Origin: a virus | IMG/VR virus record: IMGVR_UViG_3300027980_000065 | Location: 1-37,262 of that record | Strand: one strand, 5' to 3' | Length of the DNA: 37,262 nucleotides | Shown: in pieces, positions 2,938 through 37,172 of the stretch | How positions within the stretch are numbered: the stretch's first letter is position 1 | How the letters are laid out: every line of letters starts with the position of its first letter | The notes under the pieces: model-generated | The model's database searches: none | Told to the model about the DNA's origin: nothing | Seen by the model: only the letters and a program-made list of their open reading frames with translations | Program-made: the position numbers and the translations under genes

Positions 2938-4404
2938 GTGGCCAAAGCTCTGCAGTACAAATCCCCTCCAATGGGCCACCAAGTTGTGGCCCTGCGGAGG
3001 GCATGGCCTAAAAATGAATTTGCCTTCTTCCATGAAATGGGGACAGGCAAAACCTACGAGGCCATAAACCTAGCCGCAGCCCGTTACATAAACGGGCAAA
3101 TCGATGGGCTAGTCATAATCTGCGACACCCCAATTAAGAACGTTTGGTACACGGGCGATGGAACGTGGCTGGACGAAGAGGGCAAACTACAAGGCTCAGA
3201 AATCGAGAAGTGGTGCCCTGTTGATTATTCGTGCTGGGTCTTTGAATCTGGCGATCACCCACATAAGTGGATGCGGGAAAAGAAAGATGAACTCAAAATT
3301 CTCGTTGTCGGAGTTGAAGCCCTATCAATTACAAATGGTAGAGCTTATCAAGCAATCGAGTACTTCCAACGTTTCCATACGATTATGTCCGTTGTTGACG
3401 AATCGAGCAGCATCAAGAATTGGAAGGCTAAACGTACTGAGAATGTTGTTGAAGTCGGGGGATGGAGTGAATATCGCCTCATTCTTACCGGCACACCAAT
3501 TACGCAGGGACTTGAGGACCTATTTGGGCAGTTCCTTTTCCTTAACGCCAAGATTATCGATTGTAAAAACTACTTCGTCTTTCGCAACAAATACTGCGTC
3601 ATGGGGGGTTTTCAGGGTAAGAAGGTACTAGGCTACCAGTTCCAAGAACACTTGATGGACAAAGTTCGCCCCTACGTGGACTATGTTACCAAGGAAGAGT
3701 GCATGGACTTACCAGAGCAACTCTACCCTGAACCCATAATAGTCAGACCCACGGAAGAACAGACGCGGGTAATGAAACAGTTAAAGACCGAGTTCGCCAT
3801 GGAAGATGAAGGCAAAGAACTCACGATTAGCACAGTTCTGGAGCGAACTCTGCGCTATCAACAGGTCATAGGGGGCACGTTCCCCTTCGACGACGATGAA
3901 ACCGGGGGCTACGACACCAAGGCGATCAGTGGCAAGAATCCTAAGCTGGACGCGCTAGAAGCATACGTGGGTCAGCTAAGGCCCGATGCTAAGATGATCA
4001 TTTGGGCGCGGTTCGTGCCCGAAATCAGGTACATTATTGCTCGCTTACTGGAGGGATTCGATGAAGACGTAATCACAGAGTTCTACGGCGCTAATGATGC
4101 AGAACAGCGCAAAGCAAATAATCGGCGTTTCCAAGAAGACCCACGGTGCCGGTTTATTGTAAGCAATCAGGTAGTGGGCGGGAAGGGACAAACTTGGACC
4201 GCTGCCACATACAATTTCTACTACAGTAACACTTTCTCGTACCAAGACCGGTACCAATCAGAAAGCCGATCGCACCGTAAGGGGCAGGAATTCCCGGTGG
4301 TGTATCAAGATTGTGAAATGGCCGTGCCAGAGGACAAAATGATCTTGCGCGCCGTTCGGAGGAAACGAGACTTGGCAATGGAGGTTGAGGAAGCTCTGTC
4401 ATAA
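2938..4404 (+). CDS. SNF2/SF2-type DNA helicase or translocase
   Basis: This gene encodes 488 residues from GTG at 2938, immediately after the previous stop. SF2 motifs appear in order: Walker A MGTGKT (Lys38), a Walker B variant VVDESSS (Asp154, Glu155) where SNF2 proteins usually have DEAH, then LTGTPI (motif III), and near the C-terminus RSHRKGQ (444-450), the SNF2-type motif VI usually written RxHRxGQ. Such proteins use ATP to move along duplex DNA; in podoviruses they sit in the replication or early region and may aid replication, recombination or removal of bound proteins. No nuclease or chromatin domain is fused. It shares promoter P2 with the basic protein upstream and is the last gene before P3. 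Confidence 0.93.
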   Translation: MAKALQYKSPPMGHQVVALRRAWPKNEFAFFHEMGTGKTYEAINLAAARYINGQIDGLVIICDTPIKNVWYTGDGTWLDEEGKLQGSEIEKWCPVDYSCWVFESGDHPHKWMREKKDELKILVVGVEALSITNGRAYQAIEYFQRFHTIMSVVDESSSIKNWKAKRTENVVEVGGWSEYRLILTGTPITQGLEDLFGQFLFLNAKIIDCKNYFVFRNKYCVMGGFQGKKVLGYQFQEHLMDKVRPYVDYVTKEECMDLPEQLYPEPIIVRPTEEQTRVMKQLKTEFAMEDEGKELTISTVLERTLRYQQVIGGTFPFDDDETGGYDTKAISGKNPKLDALEAYVGQLRPDAKMIIWARFVPEIRYIIARLLEGFDEDVITEFYGANDAEQRKANNRRFQEDPRCRFIVSNQVVGGKGQTWTAATYNFYYSNTFSYQDRYQSESRSHRKGQEFPVVYQDCEMAVPEDKMILRAVRRKRDLAMEVEEALS

Positions 4405-4412
4405 ACAGATAC

Positions 4413-4441
4413 TTGACAGACAGCGCCGGGTGTGGTATACT
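4413..4441 (+). promoter_or_regulatory. Sigma-70 promoter P3
   Basis: TTGACA at 4413-4418 and TATACT at 4436-4441 are separated by 17 bp, with TGG before the -10 box. It lies 8 bases after the helicase stop, in the same setting as P1 and P2. The leader that follows contains GGGG-CCA-GCCC-C, a small possible hairpin, and AGGAG before the ATG at 4487. No other promoter of this family is found before the Z cassette, so P3 is the best candidate to drive it. Confidence 0.92.
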
Positions 4442-4486
4442 GGTGGACCGGTGGGGGCCAGCCCCGCCATAACACAGGAGATTAAG

Positions 4487-4942
4487 ATGTCTGAAGCAGA
4501 ACTAGAGGCCATGCGATCGCATTGCGCCAACTTTTCGTACAACCAGCTAGTCGCAATGATGCTGGAACTTCAATCGCAACACAAGCAGATGAAGGAGCAA
4601 ACCTCCCGAGCTTGGGATGCGGTCTGCATGCTAACCCGGCAGATAATCCCGGAGCGCATGGACAACGACCAAATCCAAAACATCACGGTAATCCTACCTG
4701 ATGGCAGTAAGAAACAGCTCTTAGTTATCGATCAGGTGTCTGTGAAGACCCCGCCCGAAAACAAGGCTGACCTTTGGGAGTGGCTACGCGAACACGACGC
4801 GGAAGCCCTGATCACTGAAACGGTCAACTCCTCAACCTTAGCGGCCTATGTAAGACAGCAGATGAAGGCTGGCGATGAATACCCCGTCGACCTCTGCGAT
4901 GTTAGCTCTTACTCGACCGCATCCCTCCGTAAGGCGTCGTAA
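4487..4942 (+). CDS. Replication-region protein, unknown function
   Basis: This gene encodes 151 residues from ATG at 4487, behind ACAGGAGATTAAG; the longer frame from 4385 would run back through promoter P3 and is rejected. The first 55 residues look like a long helix or coiled coil (LVAMMLELQSQHKQMKEQ). The C-terminal 60 residues (from about DLWEWLREHDAEALI) form a separate, probably alpha-helical unit ending in SYSTASLRKAS. I do not recognise a family. Being first behind P3 and directly before genes for replication and DNA modification suggests a DNA-metabolism role, by context only. Confidence 0.75.
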   Translation: MSEAELEAMRSHCANFSYNQLVAMMLELQSQHKQMKEQTSRAWDAVCMLTRQIIPERMDNDQIQNITVILPDGSKKQLLVIDQVSVKTPPENKADLWEWLREHDAEALITETVNSSTLAAYVRQQMKAGDEYPVDLCDVSSYSTASLRKAS

Positions 4943-5021: not shown

Positions 5022-5792
5022 GTGGCAAAGTCAAAAGCAGTAACAGTAGCAGACCAGACCGCATTGGCGGAACGCCCCAGTTACATGGGGGAAGAAAGTC
5101 GCGGGTCAGAAGAGGTGACCATTCAGGACATCACGATCCCGCGATTGTCAATGGTGCAGGACTTGAGTCCTCAGCGTAAGAAAAACAACGCCGAGTACAT
5201 TGAGGGCTGCGAAGAGGGTATGCTGTTCAACACAGTCACCAATCAGCTTTACGCTGAACCGGTGCTGTTTGTACCAGTGTACTTCCGGCTGGAGTGGTTG
5301 ATATGGAAGCATCGGGATGCCGGTGGTGGTTTGCAGGGCGTTCACGCTACCCAAGAAGAGGCCGTAAGAGCCGTTGGGGAGCATCCGCTCGCAGGGCAAA
5401 TGACCGAGAAAAATGAGCCGGTCCTCGAAGTTCAGGATACAGCGCAGCACTTTGGGCTGTTGCTGGACCCCAACTCACCCGCCGAAGACCCACGTGCTAC
5501 TGAGATTGTTGTGTCAATGTCGAAGAGCCAGTTGAAGCCGAGCCGACAGCTTAACAGCCAAGTCCGCATCGCCGGGGGCGACCGTTTTGAACGGTACTAC
5601 CGGTTGAGCGCGGCGCAGGTTGACGGGGCAAGAGGCGAGTACTACAACTGGAAAGTCGAGCAACTCGGCTTCGTCAGTGAGGCAATCTTCGCGCAAGCGG
5701 AGGCCTTGTACGAGTCCGTAGTCTCTGGCAAACGCGACGTAGAGCGCGACGCGGCAACTACCCAAGAAGAGGTAGACGACGACAACATGTAG
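5022..5792 (+). CDS. Conserved-type phage protein, possibly single-strand DNA binding
   Basis: This gene encodes 256 residues from GTG at 5022, with a strong AAAGGAGAAAG 5-8 bases upstream. The N-terminal part carries IPRLSMVQDLSPQ and EYIEGCEEGMLFNTVTNQLY, a pattern I associate with a family of 200-260-residue podovirus proteins encoded next to replication genes and sometimes annotated as putative ssDNA-binding proteins. The rest is beta-rich (VLFVPVYFRLEWLIW and HFGLLLD). The C-terminus is acidic (EEVDDDNM), as in many ssDNA-binding proteins where the tail recruits partners. The tail and location are seen directly; the binding role is inferred. A perfect palindrome follows 7 bases after its stop. 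Confidence 0.75.
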   Translation: MAKSKAVTVADQTALAERPSYMGEESRGSEEVTIQDITIPRLSMVQDLSPQRKKNNAEYIEGCEEGMLFNTVTNQLYAEPVLFVPVYFRLEWLIWKHRDAGGGLQGVHATQEEAVRAVGEHPLAGQMTEKNEPVLEVQDTAQHFGLLLDPNSPAEDPRATEIVVSMSKSQLKPSRQLNSQVRIAGGDRFERYYRLSAAQVDGARGEYYNWKVEQLGFVSEAIFAQAEALYESVVSGKRDVERDAATTQEEVDDDNM

Positions 5793-5844: not shown

Positions 5845-6105
5845 ATGGCAGATTTCGTGCACAAAGAGTGTGGTGGGTCCCTTTTCCGCAACAATTACAA
5901 GGAAAAGCCCAATCAACCCGATCATAAGGGTGACTGCAAAATCGAGGGCGTTGACTATTGGATCAGCGCTTGGATCAACGACGGTAAGAACGGCAAGTAT
6001 TTCGGCCTCAAGTTCGAGAAGAAAGAGGACAAGTACCAGACCGGGGAAGGGCATGGCAATCCGCCACCGGCCCCCGAGGATTTAGACGACGACATACCGT
6101 TCTAG
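5845..6105 (+). CDS. Small SSB-like protein with DDDIPF tail
   Basis: This gene encodes 86 residues from ATG at 5845, behind CAGGAGCT. The core around residues 25-60 (GDCKIEGVDYWISAW, then KNGKYFGLKFEKKE) is a short strand-rich pattern typical of small OB-like or DUF736-like phage proteins. A Pro-rich linker (NPPPAPED) then leads to LDDDIPF at the very C-terminus. An acidic end finishing in DDDIPF is the hallmark of bacterial SSB tails, which recruit replication and repair enzymes. The stop overlaps the GTG of the DNA polymerase (TAGTG), placing it as replication partner. It is much shorter than E. coli SSB; ssDNA binding is inferred from the tail and context. Confidence 0.75.
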   Translation: MADFVHKECGGSLFRNNYKEKPNQPDHKGDCKIEGVDYWISAWINDGKNGKYFGLKFEKKEDKYQTGEGHGNPPPAPEDLDDDIPF

Positions 6106-7958
6106 TGTACCCAGACCTCCGTAAATACCCGTACTTTGCGTACGATACGGAGACAACAGGGTTACGCTATCCAGTACATAAGGCATTTGCCTGCTCCATA
6201 GCTGCCCCTGATGGCAACTCGTGGTACTACGATTTCCGGCGTCAGCCGAAGGCCGTTAACTGGCTGAATGACACCTTCCGCACTCTTGATGCGAATTCCC
6301 GGGTCATTTGCCATAACGCGCCCTTTGATGCTTGCATGTCGGCTGGCGCTGGGATTCATATACCACTTGCACTCCTAGATGATACGGTAATCCGGGCATG
6401 CCTCATTAACGAACATGAGGCGTCCGTATTCCCTTGGAATAAGAAGCGCAAACCCGGGGGATACAGCCTCGATTACCTGTGCCGCAAGTACCTGAAACGC
6501 GGCAAGCTGGACATCGACGTTGCGAACATAGCCGACCTTCCGTATGAAGAGGCTAAGGATTATGCCGTAGAGGATGCAATCCTTACCCTGTTGTTATGGG
6601 AGTACCAGAAGACTGAGATACACCGAATGGGCCTCTACAAGATAGAGGAGTTGGAACGCAGGACGATGCCGGTAATCATCGAATCCCAGATGAATGGAAT
6701 CCGGGTCGACCTTGACCAGACCGAACAGGCGATGGCGGCAATGACACCGCACATCAACGGGTTGAAAAGTGAACTTAACACCCTCGCCGGGTGGGATTTT
6801 AACGTCAACTCACCGAAGCAGATGATTAAGCTGTTTGACCCGACCAAGACCGAATCAGGCTGGTGGGTCGGACGCAACAGGATCGGGACCACCGATAAGG
6901 GTGCGCCCTCGTTCAAGAAGGAGTACCTTGAAGAACTTGCCGAATTTGACCCACGTGCCCGTATGGTTACGAATATACGATCCGCGCTTAAGACGCGGGA
7001 CACGTTTCTGGCGAAGCACATCTTGGAGCATGCAATCGGAGACCGAGTTTATCCAACTATCAATCAAACAGTTCGCGAAACTGGTGGGACCAAATGGGGT
7101 CGACTATCTTACGTCGAACCAGCCATGCAGCAAATCCCTAGTCGCGATAAGGTCACGGCAGCAATCGTTAAACCTTGCTTTCTCCCGGATGATGGGCAGG
7201 TCTGGCTCGATTATGACCTTGCCTCTTTCGAAGTACGAGTCTTCGCTGCATTAGTCGGCATGTACAACGACTATCTGGTGCGAATGTACCAGAAGAATCC
7301 AACACTGGACTTCCACCAAATGGTGGCTGACCTAACCGGCCTGATCCGTAACGCAGAGTACGGGGGCCAACCTAACGCCAAGCAACTCAATCTAAGCATG
7401 ATCTTCTCTCAGGGTGCTGGTGCAACAGCCCAAAAGATGGGCATGGAGACCGAAGATGCCAAGTTCACCGACGAATGGGGAGACGAAATCAAGTACCAAC
7501 GAGCAGGTAACGATGCATATCGAATTATCGATTTGTACCATAGCAAAGTCCGGGGAGTTAGAAAGCTCGCTGAAACGGCTCGAAAGATTGCAGAAAAGCG
7601 CGGCTATCTTCGGACAAAATTTGGAAGGCATATCCGCTTTCCTAAGCGATATAAAAGTTACAAGGCATCCGGCATCCTCATCCAAGCCACTAGTGCTGAT
7701 ATCAACAAAGAGAATTGGTGCATTATTGACGAGGCTTTGGATGGACGAGGACGAATAGTCCTTAACACACACGATAGTTACAGCATGTCGGTCGACGTTG
7801 ATCACGTTGAGGACCTGCTGGGCGACGTAAAGGGAGCAGTTGAGCGGGAGTTTTTGGGTGTCCCGTTGCTGTTAGATTTCAACGGAGTAGGGCGGAACTG
7901 GTGGGCTGCCTTGAAAAATGAGGGGATAGATAATGTTACTGCCTCTGCAGGACATTAG
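6105..7958 (+). CDS. dpoZ: Family A DNA polymerase of a Z-genome phage (DpoZ-like)
   Basis: This gene encodes 617 residues from GTG at 6105, overlapping the previous TAG. The N-terminal 3'-5' exonuclease is intact: DTE (Asp14, Glu16), HNAPFD (Asp75) and YAVED (Tyr153, Asp157). The polymerase part has motif A DYDLASFEVR (Asp369), a motif B region around Lys426 (NAKQLNLSMIF) and motif C THDSY (Asp557). Compared with Pol I, motif A lacks SQIE, the R of R-x3-K in motif B appears to be Gln, and the Glu after HD is Ser. In phiVC8-type phages this enzyme (DpoZ) prefers dZTP over dATP; the assignment here rests on the fold plus linkage to purZ, mazZ and datZ. Its last 26 bases overlap the primase-helicase gene. 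Confidence 0.93.
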   Translation: MYPDLRKYPYFAYDTETTGLRYPVHKAFACSIAAPDGNSWYYDFRRQPKAVNWLNDTFRTLDANSRVICHNAPFDACMSAGAGIHIPLALLDDTVIRACLINEHEASVFPWNKKRKPGGYSLDYLCRKYLKRGKLDIDVANIADLPYEEAKDYAVEDAILTLLLWEYQKTEIHRMGLYKIEELERRTMPVIIESQMNGIRVDLDQTEQAMAAMTPHINGLKSELNTLAGWDFNVNSPKQMIKLFDPTKTESGWWVGRNRIGTTDKGAPSFKKEYLEELAEFDPRARMVTNIRSALKTRDTFLAKHILEHAIGDRVYPTINQTVRETGGTKWGRLSYVEPAMQQIPSRDKVTAAIVKPCFLPDDGQVWLDYDLASFEVRVFAALVGMYNDYLVRMYQKNPTLDFHQMVADLTGLIRNAEYGGQPNAKQLNLSMIFSQGAGATAQKMGMETEDAKFTDEWGDEIKYQRAGNDAYRIIDLYHSKVRGVRKLAETARKIAEKRGYLRTKFGRHIRFPKRYKSYKASGILIQATSADINKENWCIIDEALDGRGRIVLNTHDSYSMSVDVDHVEDLLGDVKGAVEREFLGVPLLLDFNGVGRNWWAALKNEGIDNVTASAGH

Positions 7959-10107
7959 GGATATTGATCGGATAGACGACTTCGAAACGAAGATGCACAT
8001 GGCCGCAAGACTGTATGCTGAGCAAGGAATACCGGTAGTACCCCTAAGAGCGAACAGCAAGATTTTGCCCGAGAAGAAGACGGGCGTTAACTATTTTTCC
8101 GGATCGACCAAGCCGAAGACCATGGACAAGTGGTTTGGGGAGAAAGGTCGGTACCGGGGGTGGAATATTGGGCTGGTCTGTGGTCAAGAGCTTTTTGTGA
8201 TTGACCTCGACTTACACGGGCGCGAGAACGGGATCGAGAATTGGGAGGCGTTCCGGGAAGGCCGGGAGCTAGGATGCCCGGTGGCCAAGACCCCGACCGG
8301 GGGCCGACACTTAGTCCTCCGCTGGCGGGGCAACCTGACCTCTTCCTCCGGGAAGCTGGCTCGCGGCGTGGACACACGCGGGGGCGACGGTAGCCCCCGA
8401 TCGCACGTCGTAGCATGGCCCTCGCGCACAGAAGACGGGGACTATAGTTGGGTTGAGGGCGGGGAGATACCTGAAACCCCACAGTGGATCAGCGACGCGC
8501 TTGGGGTCCCATGGTCGTCCAAACCGGGGCGGGGTAACGAGGAGGTCGGAGAACAAGATGAAGAGTGGAAATACGAGCTGCATCAAGTTGCAGCCATGCT
8601 GGACCATGTTGACCCCGACATTCTATCGTACGAAGAATGGCTATTTGTGGGACAAGCGATCAACAGTCAACACCCTGACCCAGATGGACTCCAACTTTGG
8701 GACACGTGGTCTGCTAATGGTGAGCGTTATGTACAGGGCGAATGCGAAAAGCGCTGGACTGGGTTCAATCCCGGAGGAACCATTCGAATGGGGTCGCTTA
8801 TCTATTTCGCGAAACAGGGCGGATACGACACAACTGCTGATCCGGCTAGAACGGGTGACTTTGAAGAGCTAGTAAACAAGATGAATGAGGACAATGCCAT
8901 CCTGCTGACCGGGGGCAAGGTCCGGATTGTGCACCGGGACGAACGGGGCGGAATTCACATAATGGGGACACAGGACTTCAATACCCTGATGTACAACCGA
9001 ACGATCACAATCCCCAACGCCAAGAAGCGAACCACTGAGGCCGACATTTGGATGGGCCACCCAATGCGCCGGGAGTGCATTATGGGCATGGGCTTCTTCC
9101 CCAATGAGCAGTTCTGGCACGATGGATACGTCAACATGTGGCAGGGCTGGGGGGTCAATCCTAAGGAGGGGGATTGGACCATGTTCGAGAATCACATCAA
9201 GGACATCTTGTGCGGGGGCGACGAAGAGCTAAATTGCTTTGTCCTCGATTGGGTGGCCGATATCTTGCAGGACCCGATGAATCCGAAGGGTACTGCAATA
9301 GTGATGCATGGCAAGGAAGGTACCGGCAAGGGCACCTTCTGCGAAATGGTCGGTAAGATCATGGGCAAGCAGCACTATAAACACGTGACCAATGACCGAC
9401 ATTTGACTGGTAACTTCAACTACCACCTAATGGACGGGCTATTGGTATTCGCAGACGAGGTAGTTTACGGTGGAAGCAGATCAACAGCAGGTATCCTTAA
9501 GTCCATGGTTACGGAGAAACAGCTCGTTTGTGAGCGAAAGGGCGTGGACAGTTTCATGTATGACAATAGGGCGCGGCTTGCTGTGGCCAGTAATGAGGAC
9601 TGGTTTATCCCCGCAGGTCCAGAGTCAAGACGATGGTTGGTACTGGAAGTCTCCGACAAGTACGCGAATAAGAGGAGCTACTTCGATGCCCTCTACACTC
9701 AAATGGAATCGGGTGGGTATGAAGCTATGATGCACGACTTACTGGCGAGGAAGATCACCAGTAACCTATCCAAGGCCATCGAGACGAAAGGCCTCGAGCA
9801 ACAACGTGCAATATACCGATCCACAGGCGATGCGGTTGACCAATGGATGGACCGGTGCATTGCCAAGCAAGATTTGGGGGTCCCCGATGAAGGACAAGGG
9901 GGCTGGCCGGATGATGTTGATAGAATGGACTTGTATGACGCTTTCGATAGTTGGGCGGATAACAAGAAAATAAGAACTAAGGGCGTAGCCCATTTTTACA
10001 AGAAGGTAGAGAGTTATGGTTTCGTTAAGCACCGTCCAAGAACGAAGGGCGTCCGAAAGTGGCGCTATAAAGTCCCACCACATGACAAGTTTGATACCGA
10101 AGGTTGA
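7933..10107 (+). CDS. PrimPol-SF3 helicase (bifunctional primase/helicase)
   Basis: This gene encodes 724 residues from ATG at 7933, behind GAGGGGATAG inside the polymerase gene. The N-terminal third is an archaeo-eukaryotic primase/polymerase domain: VIDLD (Asp91, Asp93), TGGRH (His126) and a third motif near HVVAWPS. A PriCT-2-like linker follows (WLFVGQAINSQHPD to IYFAKQGGYD). The C-terminal part is a D5-type SF3 helicase with Walker A GKEGTGKGT (Lys466), Walker B VFADEVV and motif C VASNED. It should both unwind DNA and lay down primers at the fork. Being joined to the polymerase and purZ suggests a shared replication module; it too must act on Z-containing template. Confidence 0.93.
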   Translation: MLLPLQDIRDIDRIDDFETKMHMAARLYAEQGIPVVPLRANSKILPEKKTGVNYFSGSTKPKTMDKWFGEKGRYRGWNIGLVCGQELFVIDLDLHGRENGIENWEAFREGRELGCPVAKTPTGGRHLVLRWRGNLTSSSGKLARGVDTRGGDGSPRSHVVAWPSRTEDGDYSWVEGGEIPETPQWISDALGVPWSSKPGRGNEEVGEQDEEWKYELHQVAAMLDHVDPDILSYEEWLFVGQAINSQHPDPDGLQLWDTWSANGERYVQGECEKRWTGFNPGGTIRMGSLIYFAKQGGYDTTADPARTGDFEELVNKMNEDNAILLTGGKVRIVHRDERGGIHIMGTQDFNTLMYNRTITIPNAKKRTTEADIWMGHPMRRECIMGMGFFPNEQFWHDGYVNMWQGWGVNPKEGDWTMFENHIKDILCGGDEELNCFVLDWVADILQDPMNPKGTAIVMHGKEGTGKGTFCEMVGKIMGKQHYKHVTNDRHLTGNFNYHLMDGLLVFADEVVYGGSRSTAGILKSMVTEKQLVCERKGVDSFMYDNRARLAVASNEDWFIPAGPESRRWLVLEVSDKYANKRSYFDALYTQMESGGYEAMMHDLLARKITSNLSKAIETKGLEQQRAIYRSTGDAVDQWMDRCIAKQDLGVPDEGQGGWPDDVDRMDLYDAFDSWADNKKIRTKGVAHFYKKVESYGFVKHRPRTKGVRKWRYKVPPHDKFDTEG

Positions 10108-11062
10108 CCTAGTATTAGACCTGCAGTTCGGGTCGACCGGCAAGGGGCTTATATGCGGGTATCTGGCTGAGGTCGGGGATTATGACACCGTAGTGTCGGC
10201 CAATATGCCGAATGCGGGGCATACCTACATTACAGCGCAGGGCGTTAAGTACATGACCAAGGTGCTGCCAGCCAGCTTCTGTGGGTCCAAGATCAAGCAA
10301 GTGTTGATCGGCCCCGGGGCGGTGTTTAGTCTGCGCCGGTTGCAGGAGGAAATGCTCTGGCTCCGGTCAGATCAGGCATTGCGCATCCACCCGAACGCCG
10401 TGGTCTTGAGCGACGAGCATGTTAAAGCCGAGCAAGGCCTGACCCACATAGCCTCGACAAGGCAGGGGTCCGCCGCCGCAATGTGTGATAAGATGTGGCG
10501 GGACAAGCCCATCACGGCCAAACAGGTGCTTAAGGGTACGAAGTGGGAGTACCTTGTCGCCAGTCACGAAGAATGGATAATCCGCTTGGAGGCATCGAGC
10601 GGTATACTTGCAGAAGGGTCGCAGGGATACAGTCTGGGGATCAACACCCAATTCTATCCCTACACCACCAGCCGCGATTGTGGACCTGCGGCCTTTCTCT
10701 CTAATTTGGGTATCCCCATCGGGATGCTTGATATGGTAATCGGCACCTGCCGAACCCTGCCAATCCGTGTCGGGGGGACAAGTGGTGATTGCTATGCGGA
10801 TCAGGAGGAGTTGTCTTGGGAGGAGTTGGGCCTAGAACCCGAGAGAACTACTGTCACCAACCGCATTCGCCGCATCTATACTTACAGTAGGATGCAAATC
10901 GAGGAGGCTTGTTGGTGGTGCCAACCTGATCTAGTCTTCCTCAACTTCGCCAACTATGTCGAACATGACCGGGTAGCAGAGATTGTTGCCCACATCGACG
11001 ACTTCAGCAACGTACGGTGGGTCGGATTTGGACCCACGTATCACGACGTAGGGTTAATATGA
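10082..11062 (+). CDS. purZ: PurZ, succinoaminodeoxyadenylate synthetase
   Basis: This gene encodes 326 residues. The start is ATG at 10082 (MTSLIPKV), 26 bases inside the helicase gene; a start at 10016 would add residues not seen in the family. PurZ joins dGMP to aspartate using a nucleoside triphosphate, giving the precursor that host PurB converts to dZMP. It is a PurA relative: P-loop-like GSTGKG at 17-22, NAGHT with the conserved His47, EGSQGYSLGIN, a YPYTTS segment and a PIRVGG segment. In PurA the loop is GDEGKGK and its Asp is the general base; here that position is Ser18, the known mark of PurZ, whose dGMP substrate has a 2-amino group. The protein is also shorter than PurA. It ends in ATGA with mazZ. 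Confidence 0.95.
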   Translation: MTSLIPKVDLVLDLQFGSTGKGLICGYLAEVGDYDTVVSANMPNAGHTYITAQGVKYMTKVLPASFCGSKIKQVLIGPGAVFSLRRLQEEMLWLRSDQALRIHPNAVVLSDEHVKAEQGLTHIASTRQGSAAAMCDKMWRDKPITAKQVLKGTKWEYLVASHEEWIIRLEASSGILAEGSQGYSLGINTQFYPYTTSRDCGPAAFLSNLGIPIGMLDMVIGTCRTLPIRVGGTSGDCYADQEELSWEELGLEPERTTVTNRIRRIYTYSRMQIEEACWWCQPDLVFLNFANYVEHDRVAEIVAHIDDFSNVRWVGFGPTYHDVGLI

Positions 11063-11373
11063 CAGACTTTAACGTAAACGAGCTAAGGGTGGTAACCCGG
11101 GCCATATGGAAGTGGGCCAATACAATCATGCCGGAACGTACGCCAGCGGACGCGATCAAGAAGCTTTCGATGGAAGAAGTGCCGGAATTATGGAGGTCGC
11201 TAAAAGAAGATGGCGAAGTGGACGAAGGCGAAATAGCCGATGTCCTTATACTTGCCCTCGACATCTGCGAAATGTCGGGTATCGACCCCCTAACCGCAAT
11301 CCACAACAAGATGGCCGTTAACATCGGTCGTACGTGGAAATTTGAACATGGGGTATTACAACATGAAGATTAA
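11059..11373 (+). CDS. mazZ: MazZ, dGTP/dATP pyrophosphohydrolase (MazG/DUF550-like)
   Basis: This gene encodes 104 residues from ATG at 11059, which overlaps the purZ stop as ATGA; the earlier ATG at 11017 would lie well inside purZ. The all-alpha NTP pyrophosphatase motif is present: EEVPE (Glu39, Glu40, Glu43) and EIADV (Glu58, Asp61), the ExxE...ExxD residues that bind magnesium. In Z-genome phages MazZ hydrolyses dGTP, and also dATP, to the monophosphate, thereby supplying PurZ with dGMP. The neighbour order purZ-mazZ-datZ supports this exact role rather than a general housekeeping MazG. Substrate choice is inferred from context. Confidence 0.9.
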   Translation: MTDFNVNELRVVTRAIWKWANTIMPERTPADAIKKLSMEEVPELWRSLKEDGEVDEGEIADVLILALDICEMSGIDPLTAIHNKMAVNIGRTWKFEHGVLQHED

Positions 11374-11863
11374 CGACATACTCCGGGCATCGGGGGTTAC
11401 CCGGTGGCACATAGTCCGGACCGTTCGCCCCCAGAGCCTAGCGGAGCATACGTTCGACGTAGTGTTCATTGCCCGGGCGATCGCCAAGATTGCCGGGGTC
11501 GACGACTACGAGATTATCAAGGCTGCTCTTCTGCATGATCTTGATGAGATTATCACTGGGGACATACCAACCCCCACCAAGAAGAGGGCAAGGGACAATG
11601 GCTGGGAGCTTAACGACCTCTATGAGAAAGTCACAGGGCGGGAACTTAGTGAGGATGAATCCCTCATTATCCAGCTGGCCGATAAAATGGCGGATTTGTA
11701 CTGGCTCTGGTTGCATGCGCTCGGCCCCCACTCTAATCAGGTCTATGAGCAAATGGCCGAGCAGTTCAATGGGGATATTCGCGGTGAGGGGATACCAGAC
11801 AACATTAGGGAAGCCGTGCTTGATGTTCAAGTGCAGGTGCTATCTGAGGATTTCTTGATATGA
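11363..11863 (+). CDS. datZ: DatZ, HD-domain dATP triphosphohydrolase
   Basis: This gene encodes 166 residues from ATG at 11363 (MKINDILRASG), overlapping mazZ by 11 bases; a start at 11342 is less likely. It is a YfbR-like HD phosphohydrolase: SLAEHTF (His29), LLHDLDE (His58, Asp59) and LADKMAD (Asp107) give the H...HD...D metal site, and GDIPTPTKK is a YfbR-family signature. In phages S-2L and phiVC8 this enzyme strips dATP to deoxyadenosine, so that adenine is not built into the genome. The segment TRWHIVRTVRP near the N-terminus lies where the family's base pocket is formed. It ends in ATGA with the nuclease gene. Confidence 0.93.
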   Translation: MKINDILRASGVTRWHIVRTVRPQSLAEHTFDVVFIARAIAKIAGVDDYEIIKAALLHDLDEIITGDIPTPTKKRARDNGWELNDLYEKVTGRELSEDESLIIQLADKMADLYWLWLHALGPHSNQVYEQMAEQFNGDIRGEGIPDNIREAVLDVQVQVLSEDFLI

Positions 11864-12363
11864 GCAATCGCGGCGAAGCACAGATGTGGAAATATCTACG
11901 TCCCAAGCTGAAACCCTTCGGCCACTTTGAGAGGATAGAAAGTCATGAAACAGCTGTCGGAACTCCTGATGTCGAATATTGTATCGGAGGATATACGAAC
12001 CGTATTGAACTCAAATTTTCAAATAGTGAAAAGAGGGGACTTCGACTCCGCCCTGCACAGGCCGGATGGTTCAGAAAGAGAGTTAAAGCTGGAGGTCAGC
12101 CGTGGTTGCTGGCACAAGCTATCGTGCGGAAGAAACGGGGGTACGTTCTGGTTGCGGGTACGGACGTACCTGCCCTTGTGCACACAACTCGAATTGCCGA
12201 TTGGCTCGAAGCCGGGATAATGGTGTGGGAGGACAAGATAGACATCGAAGAACTGATCCAATTCCTGAGTACTTACTTGATCGTGGAGTCACCTACATCA
12301 AGTGGTGCCGAGGAACCCGAACCCTCCGGATTGATACTACCTTCCGGGATACAGACACCTTAG
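11860..12363 (+). CDS. VRR-NUC family nuclease
   Basis: This gene encodes 167 residues from ATG at 11860 (ATGA with datZ). It has the PD-(D/E)xK signature of VRR-NUC proteins: an early Glu6, GTPDVEY (Asp37), RIELKF (Glu50, Lys52) and Gln67 in LRPAQAGW. These standalone nucleases are common in phage replication modules and may cut branched or flapped DNA. Being coupled to datZ makes it the last gene of the Z cassette transcript. The last 27 residues (from about IVESPTS) are low in structure and overlap another open frame at 12225-12548 that looks coding. The true end of the nuclease could therefore differ if a frameshift occurs. Confidence 0.85.
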   Translation: MSNRGEAQMWKYLRPKLKPFGHFERIESHETAVGTPDVEYCIGGYTNRIELKFSNSEKRGLRLRPAQAGWFRKRVKAGGQPWLLAQAIVRKKRGYVLVAGTDVPALVHTTRIADWLEAGIMVWEDKIDIEELIQFLSTYLIVESPTSSGAEEPEPSGLILPSGIQTP

Positions 12364-27790: not shown

Positions 27791-28188
27791 TAGCCCATCC
27801 CATAAATCGAAGCACCCAAATTGATGCTATCTTTAACCAAGTCCATCTGCCTGCCCTTGCGCTCCAAGGCAGATTGCTGCAATCCGAGCCTTCTGGCCGT
27901 TACAGCATAGTGCTTCATCCAAGTTAGTTCTTTCTTGAACTCGGATGTCATTACGTTCATGTAACCCTGAGGAGTTGAGCTAGGGGTGTGGCGAACGCCA
28001 GCAGTTTCGCTAAGCGCTTTGGCAGCACCTTTGGTCTGTTCCTGCGTAAACGCACGACGACGAATCTTCTCAAGGTTGTCCTTATATTGAAGATCGATTC
28101 GTTCTTTGTCAATTCGGCGTTGCTCGTCACTCATGGAATTACCAATTCCAAAGTTCATGATGCCAGCCCATGCCGCTAATGCACCCAT
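27790..28188 (-). CDS. Small internal virion protein, T7 gp14-like position
   Basis: This gene encodes 132 residues from ATG at 28188 (TAATG with the adaptor gene). A short hydrophobic start (MGALAAWAGIMNFGIG) is followed by a basic, helical coiled-coil part (DEQRRIDKERIDLQYKD, then RRLGLQQSALERKGRQM) and a weakly hydrophobic end (INLGASIYGMG). This shape, hydrophobic ends with a helical middle, is that of the smallest ejection protein of podoviruses, which inserts in the outer membrane. The role is inferred from order and shape; no direct sequence match is claimed. Confidence 0.75.
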   Translation of the reverse strand: MGALAAWAGIMNFGIGNSMSDEQRRIDKERIDLQYKDNLEKIRRRAFTQEQTKGAAKALSETAGVRHTPSSTPQGYMNVMTSEFKKELTWMKHYAVTARRLGLQQSALERKGRQMDLVKDSINLGASIYGMG

Positions 28189-28781
28189 TATCTTGTCCTC
28201 GCTCCCGTCAGCCTGTTACTTCTCATGACCTCTGTTCTGCCCTGTGATCCGTCAGAAGCCGTAGCTTCCTGCAATTTGTCACCGTACAACACGTCCATCT
28301 TGTCGAACAGCTTTAGGTTCTCCGTCAGTGCAATGCAGGTATCCGTGGCCAACTTGGCCGCGATCGCCTGAGCAAATGGCACAGAGAAGAAAGTTGTATT
28401 CGTCTGCCGGAAGATGAAGTGGCACCAGATTTGATCCTGATTGGCAATAATGTGATTACCTTCACGGACCCACCCGGGCGCGTTCTGGAACGTACCAGAT
28501 TGCGACGCAACGTTGGGGCGGTATACCCTGAATACCCGTAATACATCATTGGGTATGAGGAATTGTCTGCCACCACCGAATGCCGGGAGTGCCGCTAATG
28601 GGGCCAGTGTCTCACGACGAAGAGCGAACGTCCAAGCATGCTCAGCCAGCACTTTATCCCGCGCAAACGGGTAGTTGGCTTTCATGATCTTAGCCTCGTT
28701 CTGGTTATCGTTCAACGAGTTGATCAACCGCTGCCCAAGCCACGTCAGGGCCAGATTAGCAATTTCTGTTTCTGTGGCCAT
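28188..28781 (-). CDS. Tail adaptor, T7 gp11-like tail tubular protein A
   Basis: This gene encodes 197 residues from ATG at 28781 (TAATG). The pattern MATETEIANLALTWLG...INSL followed by EAKIMKANYPFARDKVLAEHAWTF (in two steps) and LAPLAALPAFGGGRQFLIPND is the standard signature of tail tubular protein A: helices that attach to the portal ring and a beta-barrel part. Twelve copies are expected between portal and nozzle. The usual length of the family is about 190-200 residues, so it is complete. Its neighbour upstream is the nozzle protein, with which it forms the tail. Confidence 0.93.
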   Translation of the reverse strand: MATETEIANLALTWLGQRLINSLNDNQNEAKIMKANYPFARDKVLAEHAWTFALRRETLAPLAALPAFGGGRQFLIPNDVLRVFRVYRPNVASQSGTFQNAPGWVREGNHIIANQDQIWCHFIFRQTNTTFFSVPFAQAIAAKLATDTCIALTENLKLFDKMDVLYGDKLQEATASDGSQGRTEVMRSNRLTGARTR

Positions 28782-31318
28782 TAGATTTCACTTCCCCTCA
28801 GCTTGCCAAATATGGCCAGTACCTCTGATTGTAGTGGCCTATCCTGCTTGATGTTCAATTGGCCCTGATCATCCGAGCCAAGTTCCGTGTACTCCACATC
28901 GCTTGTCACGATCGGTTCACCGGTTCCCATTGGGCTGGCCGGGGTGCGATCTTGCGGTACCTCGTCATTGACCAAGGGTATAGCGGAGTTATTCAACCGC
29001 AAAACGACCTCGTTCCAACGACGCTTCTGCACCTGTGCCGTTCCCCGGGCAGATGAACCCTCGTACGGCAACAGTTCAAATTCATTGTCATAGAATAGGC
29101 CGACATACACAGTGTCCCCACTCTCCACCCAATTCTCGAGGGGACTTGAAAACCCAGCAATAACGGTAGTATTGGGGTGTACTGTATAGGTTACTGTGCC
29201 TTCCAATGGGTCCACATGCTTAACGATCGTGTTAACGCTCTGATCTGTCAGTTCGTCAACATCGTCGTACCGCAGGATTCCATCCAAGAACACGTCATAG
29301 GGTGTACGTTCTGACCATGAATCCAGCGCAACTGGTGGGGCCATCGGGTCGTCAAAGGCCAACACTTCATGGCCTACCTTCTGCGTACCCGCGAAGCCGG
29401 TACGATTAACAATCATCCATAGCTTAGCCCCAGCGGACGTATTGATCTTGGTGATGTCCATGATCTGATTTGTCGGCTGGTTAACGTTGTCCTGCTGGTT
29501 AAGTAGACCCGGTTGGGTGTCGTCCCCATAGGTACGATTACCATTATACGCGGTGACGTACTTCCACCAGCCAATAACGTTCTCTGGGTAGAAGAACGTT
29601 GCCATAGCCATAGTGCCATCAGCCAACAGGAAACATGCTTGATAGGCCGGTTCGTCGAGGAAGACCATTCGACGTACTGGACTCCCGAATAGCTCTTGGG
29701 CCAACAGGCTCAGTTCGTTGCCATCCCAACCGTAATTTGTGCCACCTTCGTCGTTGAACGTCCGCAGCCTTGTCCGGCTGTTGGACGTGTAAACCATGTC
29801 CCGGCCAATTACTACTGGTTGTACGCAAGTTGACCCCCAATCCGTTTGTTTCGGGAATGCGAAGTCGTCATGGGCGATTACGCCCTGTACCGAATTGCCT
29901 ACAACCTCCGAGATATCGGTGTTGACCACCAATTCCTTACGACTAGTGAGGGTCTGGACATTACCAGACGACGACAACGGAAACAATAGTGGGTCGTCCT
30001 TGGACGCTGGGGCAGCACCATTGAAATCTTGATAGTTGCCCGAACGCGAAGCCCACAGTGTAGCAGGCTCATTGGGCGTAGCCCCCAACCAGAGTCGACC
30101 CTCGTGAATTGCACCGCAACTCGGGAAATTGCCCGCTACCCAAACATTGGGGGTAGGTGCCACATATACCGAAGGTAGTGTAATCGTTGACAACGCCTCA
30201 AACGTCCACTCGCCATTGGCAAGGCGGAGACGCATTGTTTCCACTTCCGGGTGGAAGAAGTACATAACTGCCTCACCCGGGTCCATAGCAAACTGGAGAC
30301 ATTCCAATTGGTCCGCCGAATAAGGCGATACAAACTCAACTGCTGAACCGGACCCACCTGCGAGAGGGGCAATCCAACTAATCGGATCGCCTCTGCCAAG
30401 TTGCAGCTGCATAACGTCGTCATGACAGCCAACCGTGGTGATGTCCAAGAACGGTGACGCATTCGGCCATGCGTACCCTATGGTAAAGTACAGTGAGTTA
30501 TTACCACCACCCGGGGTGAAGTTAATCGTAACCTCGTTATCGGTGGTGAATGGACCAATTGGAATATCTGTGGTGAATACGTTAGACGCACCCTTGGTCG
30601 TGCCGATGTTTACTCGGATAACCGGGTCTGACCACGGCGCACCGCCTAATACTGACTCTTCGTCATTGTAGATGCGTTGATTGTAGGTAAACTTGAATTC
30701 ATTGACCAATAATTCCGACCCTGCCGGGAGGGTGATAATGCCAACAGCCGTGTTTCCGATTGACGGGCCACGCCAACCACCGGGGCTATTGTGCAGATGC
30801 CCGAACAACAGGATACCATTTGCACCGTTGTAGATTGTGGCAATCGAGCCTGAGCAGGTATCATCTTGGGGTATGCCCGGGTCAGTACCTGCAGTATACT
30901 CCGTTTCAACGGTATCCCATTCAGAGCTTTGCACCGGGGCGCTGGTCACGTTATCGAACAGGGGATCGGATACCAAGTTACCGGTATTACCGCCTGTGAT
31001 TACCTCACCCGTGACCGAGTTGCGTACAACAATGTCGGTATCGCCAACCTCGACGATAACATCCTCATCCAACCCGCGTTGGAACGTAAATGCCCGGATG
31101 CCTTGAACCCCGGCCTGACCTGATGGCCAATTATCGGGGTCCACCGCCTCGATGAATTTCGAACCTTGGCGCAACCGGATGGGTCCCTGTACAAGAGGTT
31201 GCCAGTTCAAGGCCTCGGCTAGACCGGTCTTGTACGCGTTGCTCGAAACCCGTCCTCGGATACGCTTGCCGATAAATCCGGATTGGAAGGAATCTTGTAT
31301 GGGCGATGGTCGTGGCAT
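28781..31318 (-). CDS. Tail nozzle protein (tail tubular protein B type)
   Basis: This gene encodes 845 residues from ATG at 31318 (TAATG). The start MPRPSPIQDSFQSGFIGKRI and the next segment with NWQPLVQGPIRLRQGSKF are typical of podovirus nozzle proteins, where the first residues hold on to the adaptor ring and the phrase L-x-GP-x-x-RxGs-xF begins the propeller. Most of the chain is beta-rich with Trp and Gly turns, such as ASRSGNYQDFNGA, as in beta-propeller nozzles. It should form a hexameric tube closing the tail. The length is usual for this class, and its gene is directly before the adaptor. Confidence 0.9.
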   Translation of the reverse strand: MPRPSPIQDSFQSGFIGKRIRGRVSSNAYKTGLAEALNWQPLVQGPIRLRQGSKFIEAVDPDNWPSGQAGVQGIRAFTFQRGLDEDVIVEVGDTDIVVRNSVTGEVITGGNTGNLVSDPLFDNVTSAPVQSSEWDTVETEYTAGTDPGIPQDDTCSGSIATIYNGANGILLFGHLHNSPGGWRGPSIGNTAVGIITLPAGSELLVNEFKFTYNQRIYNDEESVLGGAPWSDPVIRVNIGTTKGASNVFTTDIPIGPFTTDNEVTINFTPGGGNNSLYFTIGYAWPNASPFLDITTVGCHDDVMQLQLGRGDPISWIAPLAGGSGSAVEFVSPYSADQLECLQFAMDPGEAVMYFFHPEVETMRLRLANGEWTFEALSTITLPSVYVAPTPNVWVAGNFPSCGAIHEGRLWLGATPNEPATLWASRSGNYQDFNGAAPASKDDPLLFPLSSSGNVQTLTSRKELVVNTDISEVVGNSVQGVIAHDDFAFPKQTDWGSTCVQPVVIGRDMVYTSNSRTRLRTFNDEGGTNYGWDGNELSLLAQELFGSPVRRMVFLDEPAYQACFLLADGTMAMATFFYPENVIGWWKYVTAYNGNRTYGDDTQPGLLNQQDNVNQPTNQIMDITKINTSAGAKLWMIVNRTGFAGTQKVGHEVLAFDDPMAPPVALDSWSERTPYDVFLDGILRYDDVDELTDQSVNTIVKHVDPLEGTVTYTVHPNTTVIAGFSSPLENWVESGDTVYVGLFYDNEFELLPYEGSSARGTAQVQKRRWNEVVLRLNNSAIPLVNDEVPQDRTPASPMGTGEPIVTSDVEYTELGSDDQGQLNIKQDRPLQSEVLAIFGKLRGSEI

Positions 31319-35298: not shown

Positions 35299-35530
35299 TT
35301 TCTTTATACCTTATCATCTGGCGAATGTAGATCACAACATCGCGTTTGCCGCAGTTGTAGTTTGTCTTCGCGTCCGTTTCCCCGATTATCACGTCGGGGT
35401 TAAATTCCTCCTCAAGCGCTTCGAGAACCTTCACTCCTAATGGCGAAGTGAATAACTTGTGAAAGTTCCCGGCCTTCTTGTTGAGGGCCTCTATTGCAGC
35501 TTCTTTAGGCCGCTTGTTGTCCTCCGCCAC
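35270..35530 (-). CDS. Bbp19-like phage protein
   Basis: This gene encodes 86 residues from GTG at 35530, behind AGGAGGTAACAG, a very strong ribosome site inside the portal gene. FHKLFTSPLGVKVLEALEEEF and the ending NCGKRDVVIYIRQMI (in parts) match the Bbp19 pattern first named in Bordetella phage BPP-1: a helix with F-x-x-L-F-x-x-P-x-G-x-x-VL, then an FNPG/CGKR-D-V-V-x-Y-I motif. These proteins are found near portal and scaffold genes in many podoviruses; their exact job in head assembly is not established. Confidence 0.8.
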   Translation of the reverse strand: MAEDNKRPKEAAIEALNKKAGNFHKLFTSPLGVKVLEALEEEFNPDVIIGETDAKTNYNCGKRDVVIYIRQMIRYKENARRTELEG

Positions 35531-37172
35531 CTGTTACCTCCTGTAGCGCGGCCTCGCCTTTAGCGAGTGCCTCATTGCCTTTGCCGATTTGTTCGTCTTC
35601 GACCCCTTGCTGCATCTTGGCCTGTGCGTCCTGCTTCTTCTTGCGCTCCTTCTTGATTTCCGCATCGGAATTCATGAGCTTCGCGGGGACACCTTCCAGT
35701 GAGCCAAGTTCTTTACCAATTGCATCCCAATTCGGGATGTCAAGAACCTCTGGTACAATTTCTCCGAGTTCGGCAAGCGAGGCGACCCAACGTGAGACAC
35801 CTTGAGCGATATCTGCTCGCTGCGCTCGTACAAGCGGCCCTGTATAGATAATGTCAAGTTCGCCGTTACCTTCGTCCGTGATGGCTGCAGGGAGTTCACC
35901 AAACTGTCCGGCTCGATAAAGGATGTTAAAAGTCCTCTGTACGAGTGGGTCCAGATAATCCGATTGAAGTCGTCCAAGTGTAGGTCCCAGTAACCTTTGC
36001 ATAAGTTCATAGCGCGTTTGTACCTCGGTCGCGGTCATTGCCGGACTTTCTTTTAACTCCAGCTGATCCACGTAAAAGATCGACCTGATGCTCTGCTTCA
36101 ACTGCTCGCGCTGGAGTTGCGAGACATCGAAGCGCGCACCGGACTCGTAAGGTTCCATCGAGTCCATGGTGCGCACAACGGTCAGGCCAGCAGGTTCCAA
36201 GTCCAAGTCGGACAGTAGGCCCCGCTCTGTTACTTTTGTCGGAGGGTCGACTACCTTCTCTGTTGACTTAAGGATAAGTTCCACGAGTTGATTGATAGTC
36301 AGTATATCCGGAAGGGCTATCATTGCTGGGCCGTGGCCCCACATGGACTTGGAAGTCTTTCGCCAACGGGGGATAAAGGCAGGGTTCTCATAATACCCTC
36401 CCTCTTCCCCCAACTCGAAAGCGTCCTTATGCAGGACGTGTTTCATTCCCCATGGCCGCTCTTTGGGTGCGAGCGTTTTGGAGACATTAGCGTTCTTCTT
36501 GTCTTCCCGTGGGTATATGCACAGGATTACAGCGAGTTTCTTGTCCATGCTCTGGGCGTTACCTACTTGCTTCTGCATGGCCTCGGGTAATGCTTCTATC
36601 CCGAATTTGGTGGCAATCTGGTCAACCGTCCACATATACCTTCGGTAGCTCCGATTGGCCTGCCCGGTATGGTCTTGCTCAAACCACGTCTCTTCGACCG
36701 GGACGGATTGGAAGTTCAGCTTTTGGAACTTGCCGTTCTTCTCTTCGACCTCTTCGATAATCATCGAGGTACCGTATGATACCAAGTCGATATATGTCTC
36801 GTTGGCCTCCAGATTGAAATTGGAGTCCTGCAGCCCCAAGAAGCACTTGTGGGCGGCTGCTTCAAGCCACGCTCGAGATTCCTTATCGTCGTTCAGGACT
36901 TCGGAACGAAAGGCCAACTCGAACCAACGAATAGCGGGGCTAGTAAGAGAGCCGTGTATACTAGCAGCAAGAGTACCAGCAGCGTCAACCGCAGTCGAGT
37001 CGAAGATTTCACGGTTGTCTCTCCACGTGACAGCATGTTCCGACGATATGTCGCGGAAGAAGTCACCACGGAATGGTACAACCAGCTTGTTGATAACGTC
37101 CCACACGTCTTCAACGGTCTTCCGTTGTGACACGAGGGTATCAAATCGTTTTACAATGTCTTTACCGTCCAT
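35505..37172 (-). CDS. Portal (head-tail connector) protein
   Basis: This gene encodes 555 residues from ATG at 37172. The N-terminus (KRFDTLVSQRKTVEDVWDVI, then LVVPFRGDFF) and the middle (GTLAASIHGSLTSPAIRWFE, then MTATEVQTRYELMQRLLGP) are classic for the podovirus head-to-tail connecting protein family. The last 50 residues are charged and repetitive (KKERKKKQDAQAKMQ, then Gly/Gln-rich), a usual tail for this family. Twelve copies form the ring through which DNA enters and leaves, and the packaging motor binds to it. The length is normal for the family. Confidence 0.95.
   Translation of the reverse strand: MDGKDIVKRFDTLVSQRKTVEDVWDVINKLVVPFRGDFFRDISSEHAVTWRDNREIFDSTAVDAAGTLAASIHGSLTSPAIRWFELAFRSEVLNDDKESRAWLEAAAHKCFLGLQDSNFNLEANETYIDLVSYGTSMIIEEVEEKNGKFQKLNFQSVPVEETWFEQDHTGQANRSYRRYMWTVDQIATKFGIEALPEAMQKQVGNAQSMDKKLAVILCIYPREDKKNANVSKTLAPKERPWGMKHVLHKDAFELGEEGGYYENPAFIPRWRKTSKSMWGHGPAMIALPDILTINQLVELILKSTEKVVDPPTKVTERGLLSDLDLEPAGLTVVRTMDSMEPYESGARFDVSQLQREQLKQSIRSIFYVDQLELKESPAMTATEVQTRYELMQRLLGPTLGRLQSDYLDPLVQRTFNILYRAGQFGELPAAITDEGNGELDIIYTGPLVRAQRADIAQGVSRWVASLAELGEIVPEVLDIPNWDAIGKELGSLEGVPAKLMNSDAEIKKERKKKQDAQAKMQQGVEDEQIGKGNEALAKGEAALQEVTGGGGQQAA

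Follow-up and report, generated by a model that had tools for sequence, protein, structure and literature searches.

Does this stretch of viral DNA encode a complete route for replacing adenine (A) by 2-aminoadenine (Z), and is it the route of the known Z phages? In the published pathway dGTP is cut to dGMP, dGMP is joined with aspartate to form dSMP, dATP is removed and a Z-selective polymerase is employed. The DNA analysed, hereafter the window, is the entire IMG/VR record IMGVR_UViG_3300027980_000065 (37,262 bases). With a probability of roughly 0.9 we take it to come from an uncultured podovirus, phiVC8/ZP6-like, that builds its DNA with 2-aminoadenine and has its genes for replication and base replacement in one operon.

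Gene order and setting of the operon

The original prediction had placed five overlapping genes between 6105 and 11863, encoding a family A polymerase, a PrimPol-helicase, PurZ, MazZ and DatZ. The + strand does contain the five open frames, the two end positions are correct, and the identities hold at the level of profile, residues and structure (Table 1). The five genes belong to a gapless row of seven consecutive genes (+ strand, 5845-12363), which begins with a gene for a single-strand DNA binding protein-like product and ends with the phrog_2165 gene; the latter is annotated as DNA helicase in phiVC8 and as nuclease in ZP6. Refined start codons (ATG at 10082 for PurZ, 11059 for MazZ and 11363 for DatZ) were chosen from the junctions and from relatives. 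The overlaps measure 26 bases (DpoZ/PrimPol), 26 (PrimPol/PurZ), 4 (PurZ/MazZ, ATGA), 11 (MazZ/DatZ) and 4 (DatZ/next gene, ATGA). The predicted coupling by ATGA and short overlaps is real, but nothing here supports the fixed protein ratios that had been read from it; overlaps of this kind are typical of phage operons.

The run is probably transcribed from the last strong promoter-like site upstream of the cassette (Table 1). Besides this site only two others, at 1048 and 2383 on the same strand, scored above 9/12. All three (1048-1076, 2383-2411 and 4413-4441, + strand) are near-perfect sigma-70-like promoters with TG before the second hexamer, and they precede early genes and replication genes; the remaining promoter-like matches are at background level. 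Near the Z operon lies also a protein (4385-4942) matching the Pfam family named after Pam3 phage gp33 (DUF7307), as does the gp34-like gene of Table 1. The cassette-relative place of the latter is taken by hypothetical genes in phiVC8, ZP6 and BUCT555.

The structural genes are on the strand opposite to the cassette. Tail tubular-type proteins, a podovirus-type head-tail adaptor/portal and an internal virion protein bear out the assignment to a podovirus. No terminase was recognised in the 37,262-base record, whose end falls just past the portal gene, and in G007, a relative of 40.8 kb, an apparent terminase (called by eye) that is split across the contig ends comes after the portal. The window is therefore a fragment, a few kilobases short of complete. 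A search for tRNA genes found none. Related prophages offered no clue to the host, the search returning only three distant, uninformative metagenome-assembled contigs.

Table 1. Features of the window that bear on the Z operon and on the virion type
Feature	Position	Strand	Evidence
Sigma-70-like promoter	4413..4441	+	TTGACA-17-TATACT, TG preceding second hexamer; 11/12 matches
Pam3 gp34-like protein	5022..5792	+	PF23977/phrog_2402
Small single-strand DNA binding protein-like gene	5845..6105	+	phrog_18154, 2.2e-14; TAGTG junction with DpoZ
DpoZ, family A DNA polymerase with 3'-5' exonuclease domain, phiVC8-like	6105..7958	+	NCBIfam DpoZ_1
PrimPol (AEP) with PriCT_2 and helicase domain	7933..10107	+	PF09250 1.5e-20, PF08707 5e-17, PF19263 5.8e-24
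PurZ, predicted dGMP:aspartate ligase	10082..11062	+	phrog_1211 5.6e-76
MazZ, type MazZ-1 (S-2L-like), predicted (d)GTP pyrophosphohydrolase	11059..11373	+	7ody 3.6e-12
DatZ, HD-domain, predicted dATP triphosphohydrolase	11363..11863	+	phrog_7076 2e-31; 6zpa 1.7e-12
phrog_2165 gene, nuclease-like, closes the run in the phage family	11860..12363	+	2.9e-21
Two tail tubular-type proteins, podovirus structural module	28188..31318	-	phrog_394 3.3e-42, phrog_376 2e-75
Portal / head-tail adaptor	35505..37172	-	podovirus-type; 54% identical to Vibrio phages, VP2/VP5 group

A lineage of related contigs

The window belongs to a lineage of 13 IMG/VR contigs (support 100 in the PurZ tree), in which PurZ is 66-84% identical to that of the window and the cassette is conserved. 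Among phage isolates, tblastn detected at most 53% identity for PurZ and about 50.5% for DpoZ, and no isolate exceeded about 55% protein identity for the proteins searched. A PurZ protein (48% identical) is also encoded at 9884-10987 of a 119,931-base viral contig (L038). No DpoZ was found in that contig, and MazZ, DatZ and PrimPol were absent within 10 kb of its PurZ gene.

PurZ, MazZ and DatZ have most key residues of characterised Z enzymes

Gene identities, key residues, gene order and the polymerase fold were established directly. The reference residues for DpoZ, PurZ, MazZ and DatZ were those named in PMC8342488, PMC8065100 and PMC8599892. In PurZ, Ser18 replaces the catalytic Asp13 of PurA and aligns with Ser14 of phiVC8 and Ser23 of S-2L PurZ. 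The pocket residues (S-2L N49, A50, T132, R146, Q190, V241, T273-T276 and N/Q308) are all kept, position 308 being Asn as in phiVC8. Two positions differ (G130 to Ala, C204 to Thr), both variable among known PurZ proteins. The closest solved structure by sequence is phiVC8 PurZ (6fm1), and the E-value of this match (7e-104) excludes chance. Against the NCBIfam model NF038379 the protein scored 296.1 bits over the whole model, the cut-off being 300. Most active-site residues of PurZ are invariant in 12 lineage members at 66-84% identity.

The four metal-binding acids of MazZ-1 (E35, E38, E50, D53) correspond to E40, E43, E58 and D61 of the window protein, and the guanine-contacting I56 and D60, together with R83, to I64, D68 and R91. 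S-2L MazZ (7ody) is the closest solved structure by sequence. From the kinship with phiVC8 one would have expected MazZ-2, but this type was rejected, residues and matches being those of MazZ-1. Lineage members have the MazZ-1-like form, three of them matching a simple motif only partly. Among the matches listed, all phage records that matched the window MazZ also matched PurZ.

DatZ is closest, among solved structures, to S-2L DatZ (6zpa) by sequence. Its metal ligands (H34, H66, D67, D119) and the residues contacting base and sugar (W20, I22, P79) are all identical. Of the phosphate-binding positions R19 and K81 are retained and K116 is Gln; position 116 also varies in other relatives. Within the lineage it is occupied by Gln or His in nine of ten DatZ proteins, and the variation extends outside the lineage.

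The window PrimPol is 45% identical to the phiVC8 protein annotated as 'DNA primase'. PrimPol has no known specificity for Z.

DpoZ lacks part of an exonuclease element

The polymerase scored 696.3 bits against NCBIfam NF038380 and passed the cut-off of 500. When its AlphaFold model (mean pLDDT 89.7) was compared by Foldseek, phiVC8 DpoZ was the top match (7pbk, TM-score 0.88). The three insertions round the polymerase site and the residues L455, F459 and G548 are present in the window protein and in its relatives. The stretch preceding motif A (residues 328-333) reads GTKWGR in the window, as it does in seven relatives of the lineage, and GTKTGR in L015; most phiVC8-like DpoZ proteins have GTGTGR.

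The exonuclease domain is different. About 18 residues are gone between helices E and F, leaving helix E1 absent and E2 shortened. The corresponding helices of phiVC8 DpoZ are A145-F155 (E1) and R161-R170 (E2) (PMC8599892). An AlphaFold control on phiVC8 DpoZ recovered both (147-155 and 161-170); in the model of the window protein the sole helix of this region is 139-144, that is, no E1 and an E2 of six residues. The loss was found in all nine available DpoZ proteins of the lineage and in none of 28 other phiVC8-like rows of the DpoZ tree, from which the deletion columns had been left out. It arose once, by a single change on the tree (branch support 100). The unique features of phiVC8 DpoZ have been described as conserved in its clade (PMC8599892); having lost the E1/E2 element, the window lineage is an exception. 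We did not use the extended element as a defining criterion for membership of the DpoZ clade.

Residues of the E1/E2 element matter for proofreading in phiVC8 DpoZ (PMC8599892). The E2 double substitution R161A/M165A lowers exonuclease activity and raises the preference for Z over A, with mid-points for dATP/dZTP of 342/1.9 µM compared with 449/15.6 µM for the wild type, and exonuclease-dead mutants retain Z preference (PMC8599892).

DatZ is missing in three relatives

In three of the 13 lineage members (L009, L014 and L018) DatZ is absent from its usual place after MazZ. In its place they encode a 73-residue DUF7220 protein (11313-11531, 11316-11534 and 6410-6628, respectively), which occurs in none of the DatZ-bearing loci compared. 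Searches with the lineage DatZ and with PF12917 found no DatZ elsewhere in the three contigs. The L014 contig is a near-complete genome of 40.8 kb, so that truncation alone does not account for its lack of DatZ; those of L009 and L018 are shorter. The unmatched genes scanned in the near-complete DatZ-less genome gave no convincing Pfam match to an alternative dATP-removing enzyme, only DUF7220. On the tree, presence and absence of DatZ need three changes. In Vibrio phage VP2 (L022, 11215-11804) DatZ appears as two overlapping frames, possibly through a frameshift or a sequencing error.

The two losses may be connected. Loss of E1 and most of E2 might, like R161A/M165A in phiVC8 DpoZ, give the polymerase a higher intrinsic selectivity for Z over A and so make DatZ dispensable, hence its replacement by DUF7220 in three members; A would then be controlled by the polymerase and no longer through the nucleotide pool. 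Comparison of DatZ loss within and outside the armless lineage (3/13 vs 0/28, Fisher p = 0.027, kinship uncorrected and the outside count approximate) is suggestive only. Since the association is uncorrected for kinship and the deletion does not equal the R161A/M165A substitutions, we treat the idea as a lead only and think it will probably turn out wrong. The polymerase variant is worth an assay: nature has deleted from the window DpoZ an element with an implicated role in proofreading, and the protein could serve to test directly why such polymerases prefer Z. Whether dATP removal is needed at all is a question raised by the relatives without DatZ.

The proposed pathway and its alternatives

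From these genes we infer the reactions and the Z content of the virion DNA. MazZ would cut dGTP to dGMP, and PurZ would use (d)ATP to condense dGMP with aspartate, giving dSMP. The host's PurB and kinases would carry dSMP on to dZTP, while DatZ would remove dATP. DpoZ would copy the genome, primed by the PrimPol-helicase, and prefer Z opposite T; in this lineage it would do so without the extended E1/E2 element of phiVC8 DpoZ. Neither PurB nor the kinases were recognised in the record, so these steps fall to the host, as had been predicted; in S-2L and phiVC8 the host likewise performs them.

Homology gives good support to the Z-genome reading, as the order of the cassette equals that of phiVC8, ZP6 and BUCT555. 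It is further supported by the profiles, by the active-site and specificity residues of four enzymes, by characterised Z proteins as best solved-structure matches, by the conserved cassette in relatives and by the strong promoter-like sequence that precedes the run. Weighing against it are the PurZ score just below the cut-off (296 bits), the Gln at Lys116 of DatZ and the missing part of the DpoZ exonuclease element. The last two would fit enzymes that work yet replace A by Z only partially, an armless DpoZ proofreading or discriminating poorly beside a weakened DatZ; the three relatives without DatZ point the same way. We regard this as unlikely, since exonuclease-dead phiVC8 DpoZ keeps its Z preference and R161A/M165A even raises it (PMC8599892), the polymerase-domain signatures are all kept, and position 116 of DatZ is variable outside the lineage too.

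That DatZ was lost in relatives might also suggest a relic cassette whose owner no longer makes Z-DNA. With five intact frames in the window and PurZ active-site residues that are mostly invariant over 12 members (66-84% identity), such decay is very improbable. We give even less credence to an ordinary PurA-like enzyme that supplies AMP precursors in a phage with normal DNA. PurZ and PurA do share a superfamily, but a PurA-like function was rejected on the Ser at the catalytic Asp position and on the structure ranking, in which phiVC8 PurZ is far ahead of any PurA; the PurZ pocket residues and the neighbouring MazZ, DatZ and DpoZ genes speak against it as well. Replacement of A by Z stays the preferred reading, and the cassette may be called complete as predicted: it has an enzyme for each step of the published route, with the specificity residues, and arranges them in the order of characterised Z phages.

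Comparison with known Z phages

The Z-DNA gene system itself is already known; with this cassette the Z-DNA phages gain a lineage of uncultured podoviruses. The prediction had equated its route with that of S-2L and phiVC8. The exact set matches neither, S-2L being without DpoZ and phiVC8 having MazZ-2.

The Vibrio phage phiVC8 (Enhodamvirus, with VP2 and VP5) is a podovirus like the window and has the same order: helicase, then, further on, polymerase, primase, PurZ, MazZ, DatZ and the phrog_2165 gene. Its PurZ, DpoZ and PrimPol are 55%, 51% and 45% identical to those of the window. It differs in its MazZ-2 (22% identity to the window MazZ) and in the full E1/E2 element of DpoZ. The same two differences separate the Alteromonas phage ZP6 (Mareflavirus), a podovirus that shares the run (PurZ 51%, DpoZ 51%), whose major capsid protein is the closest found to that of the window (51%). 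Cyanophage S-2L has the purZ, mazZ and datZ cluster in common, its MazZ, a MazZ-1, being 42% identical; lacking DpoZ, it has PrimPol as its only polymerase (PMC8065100).

A phiVC8-like DpoZ combined with an S-2L-type MazZ matches the gene set of the Stenotrophomonas phage BUCT555. This phage has DpoZ, primase, PurZ, a DUF550-type MazZ and DatZ in the order and with the coupling of the window. Its MazZ, as in the window, is assigned to MazZ-1, so that this type inside a phiVC8-like podovirus has a counterpart there. BUCT555 differs in keeping E1/E2 in DpoZ and in its PrimPol, which is just 29% identical.
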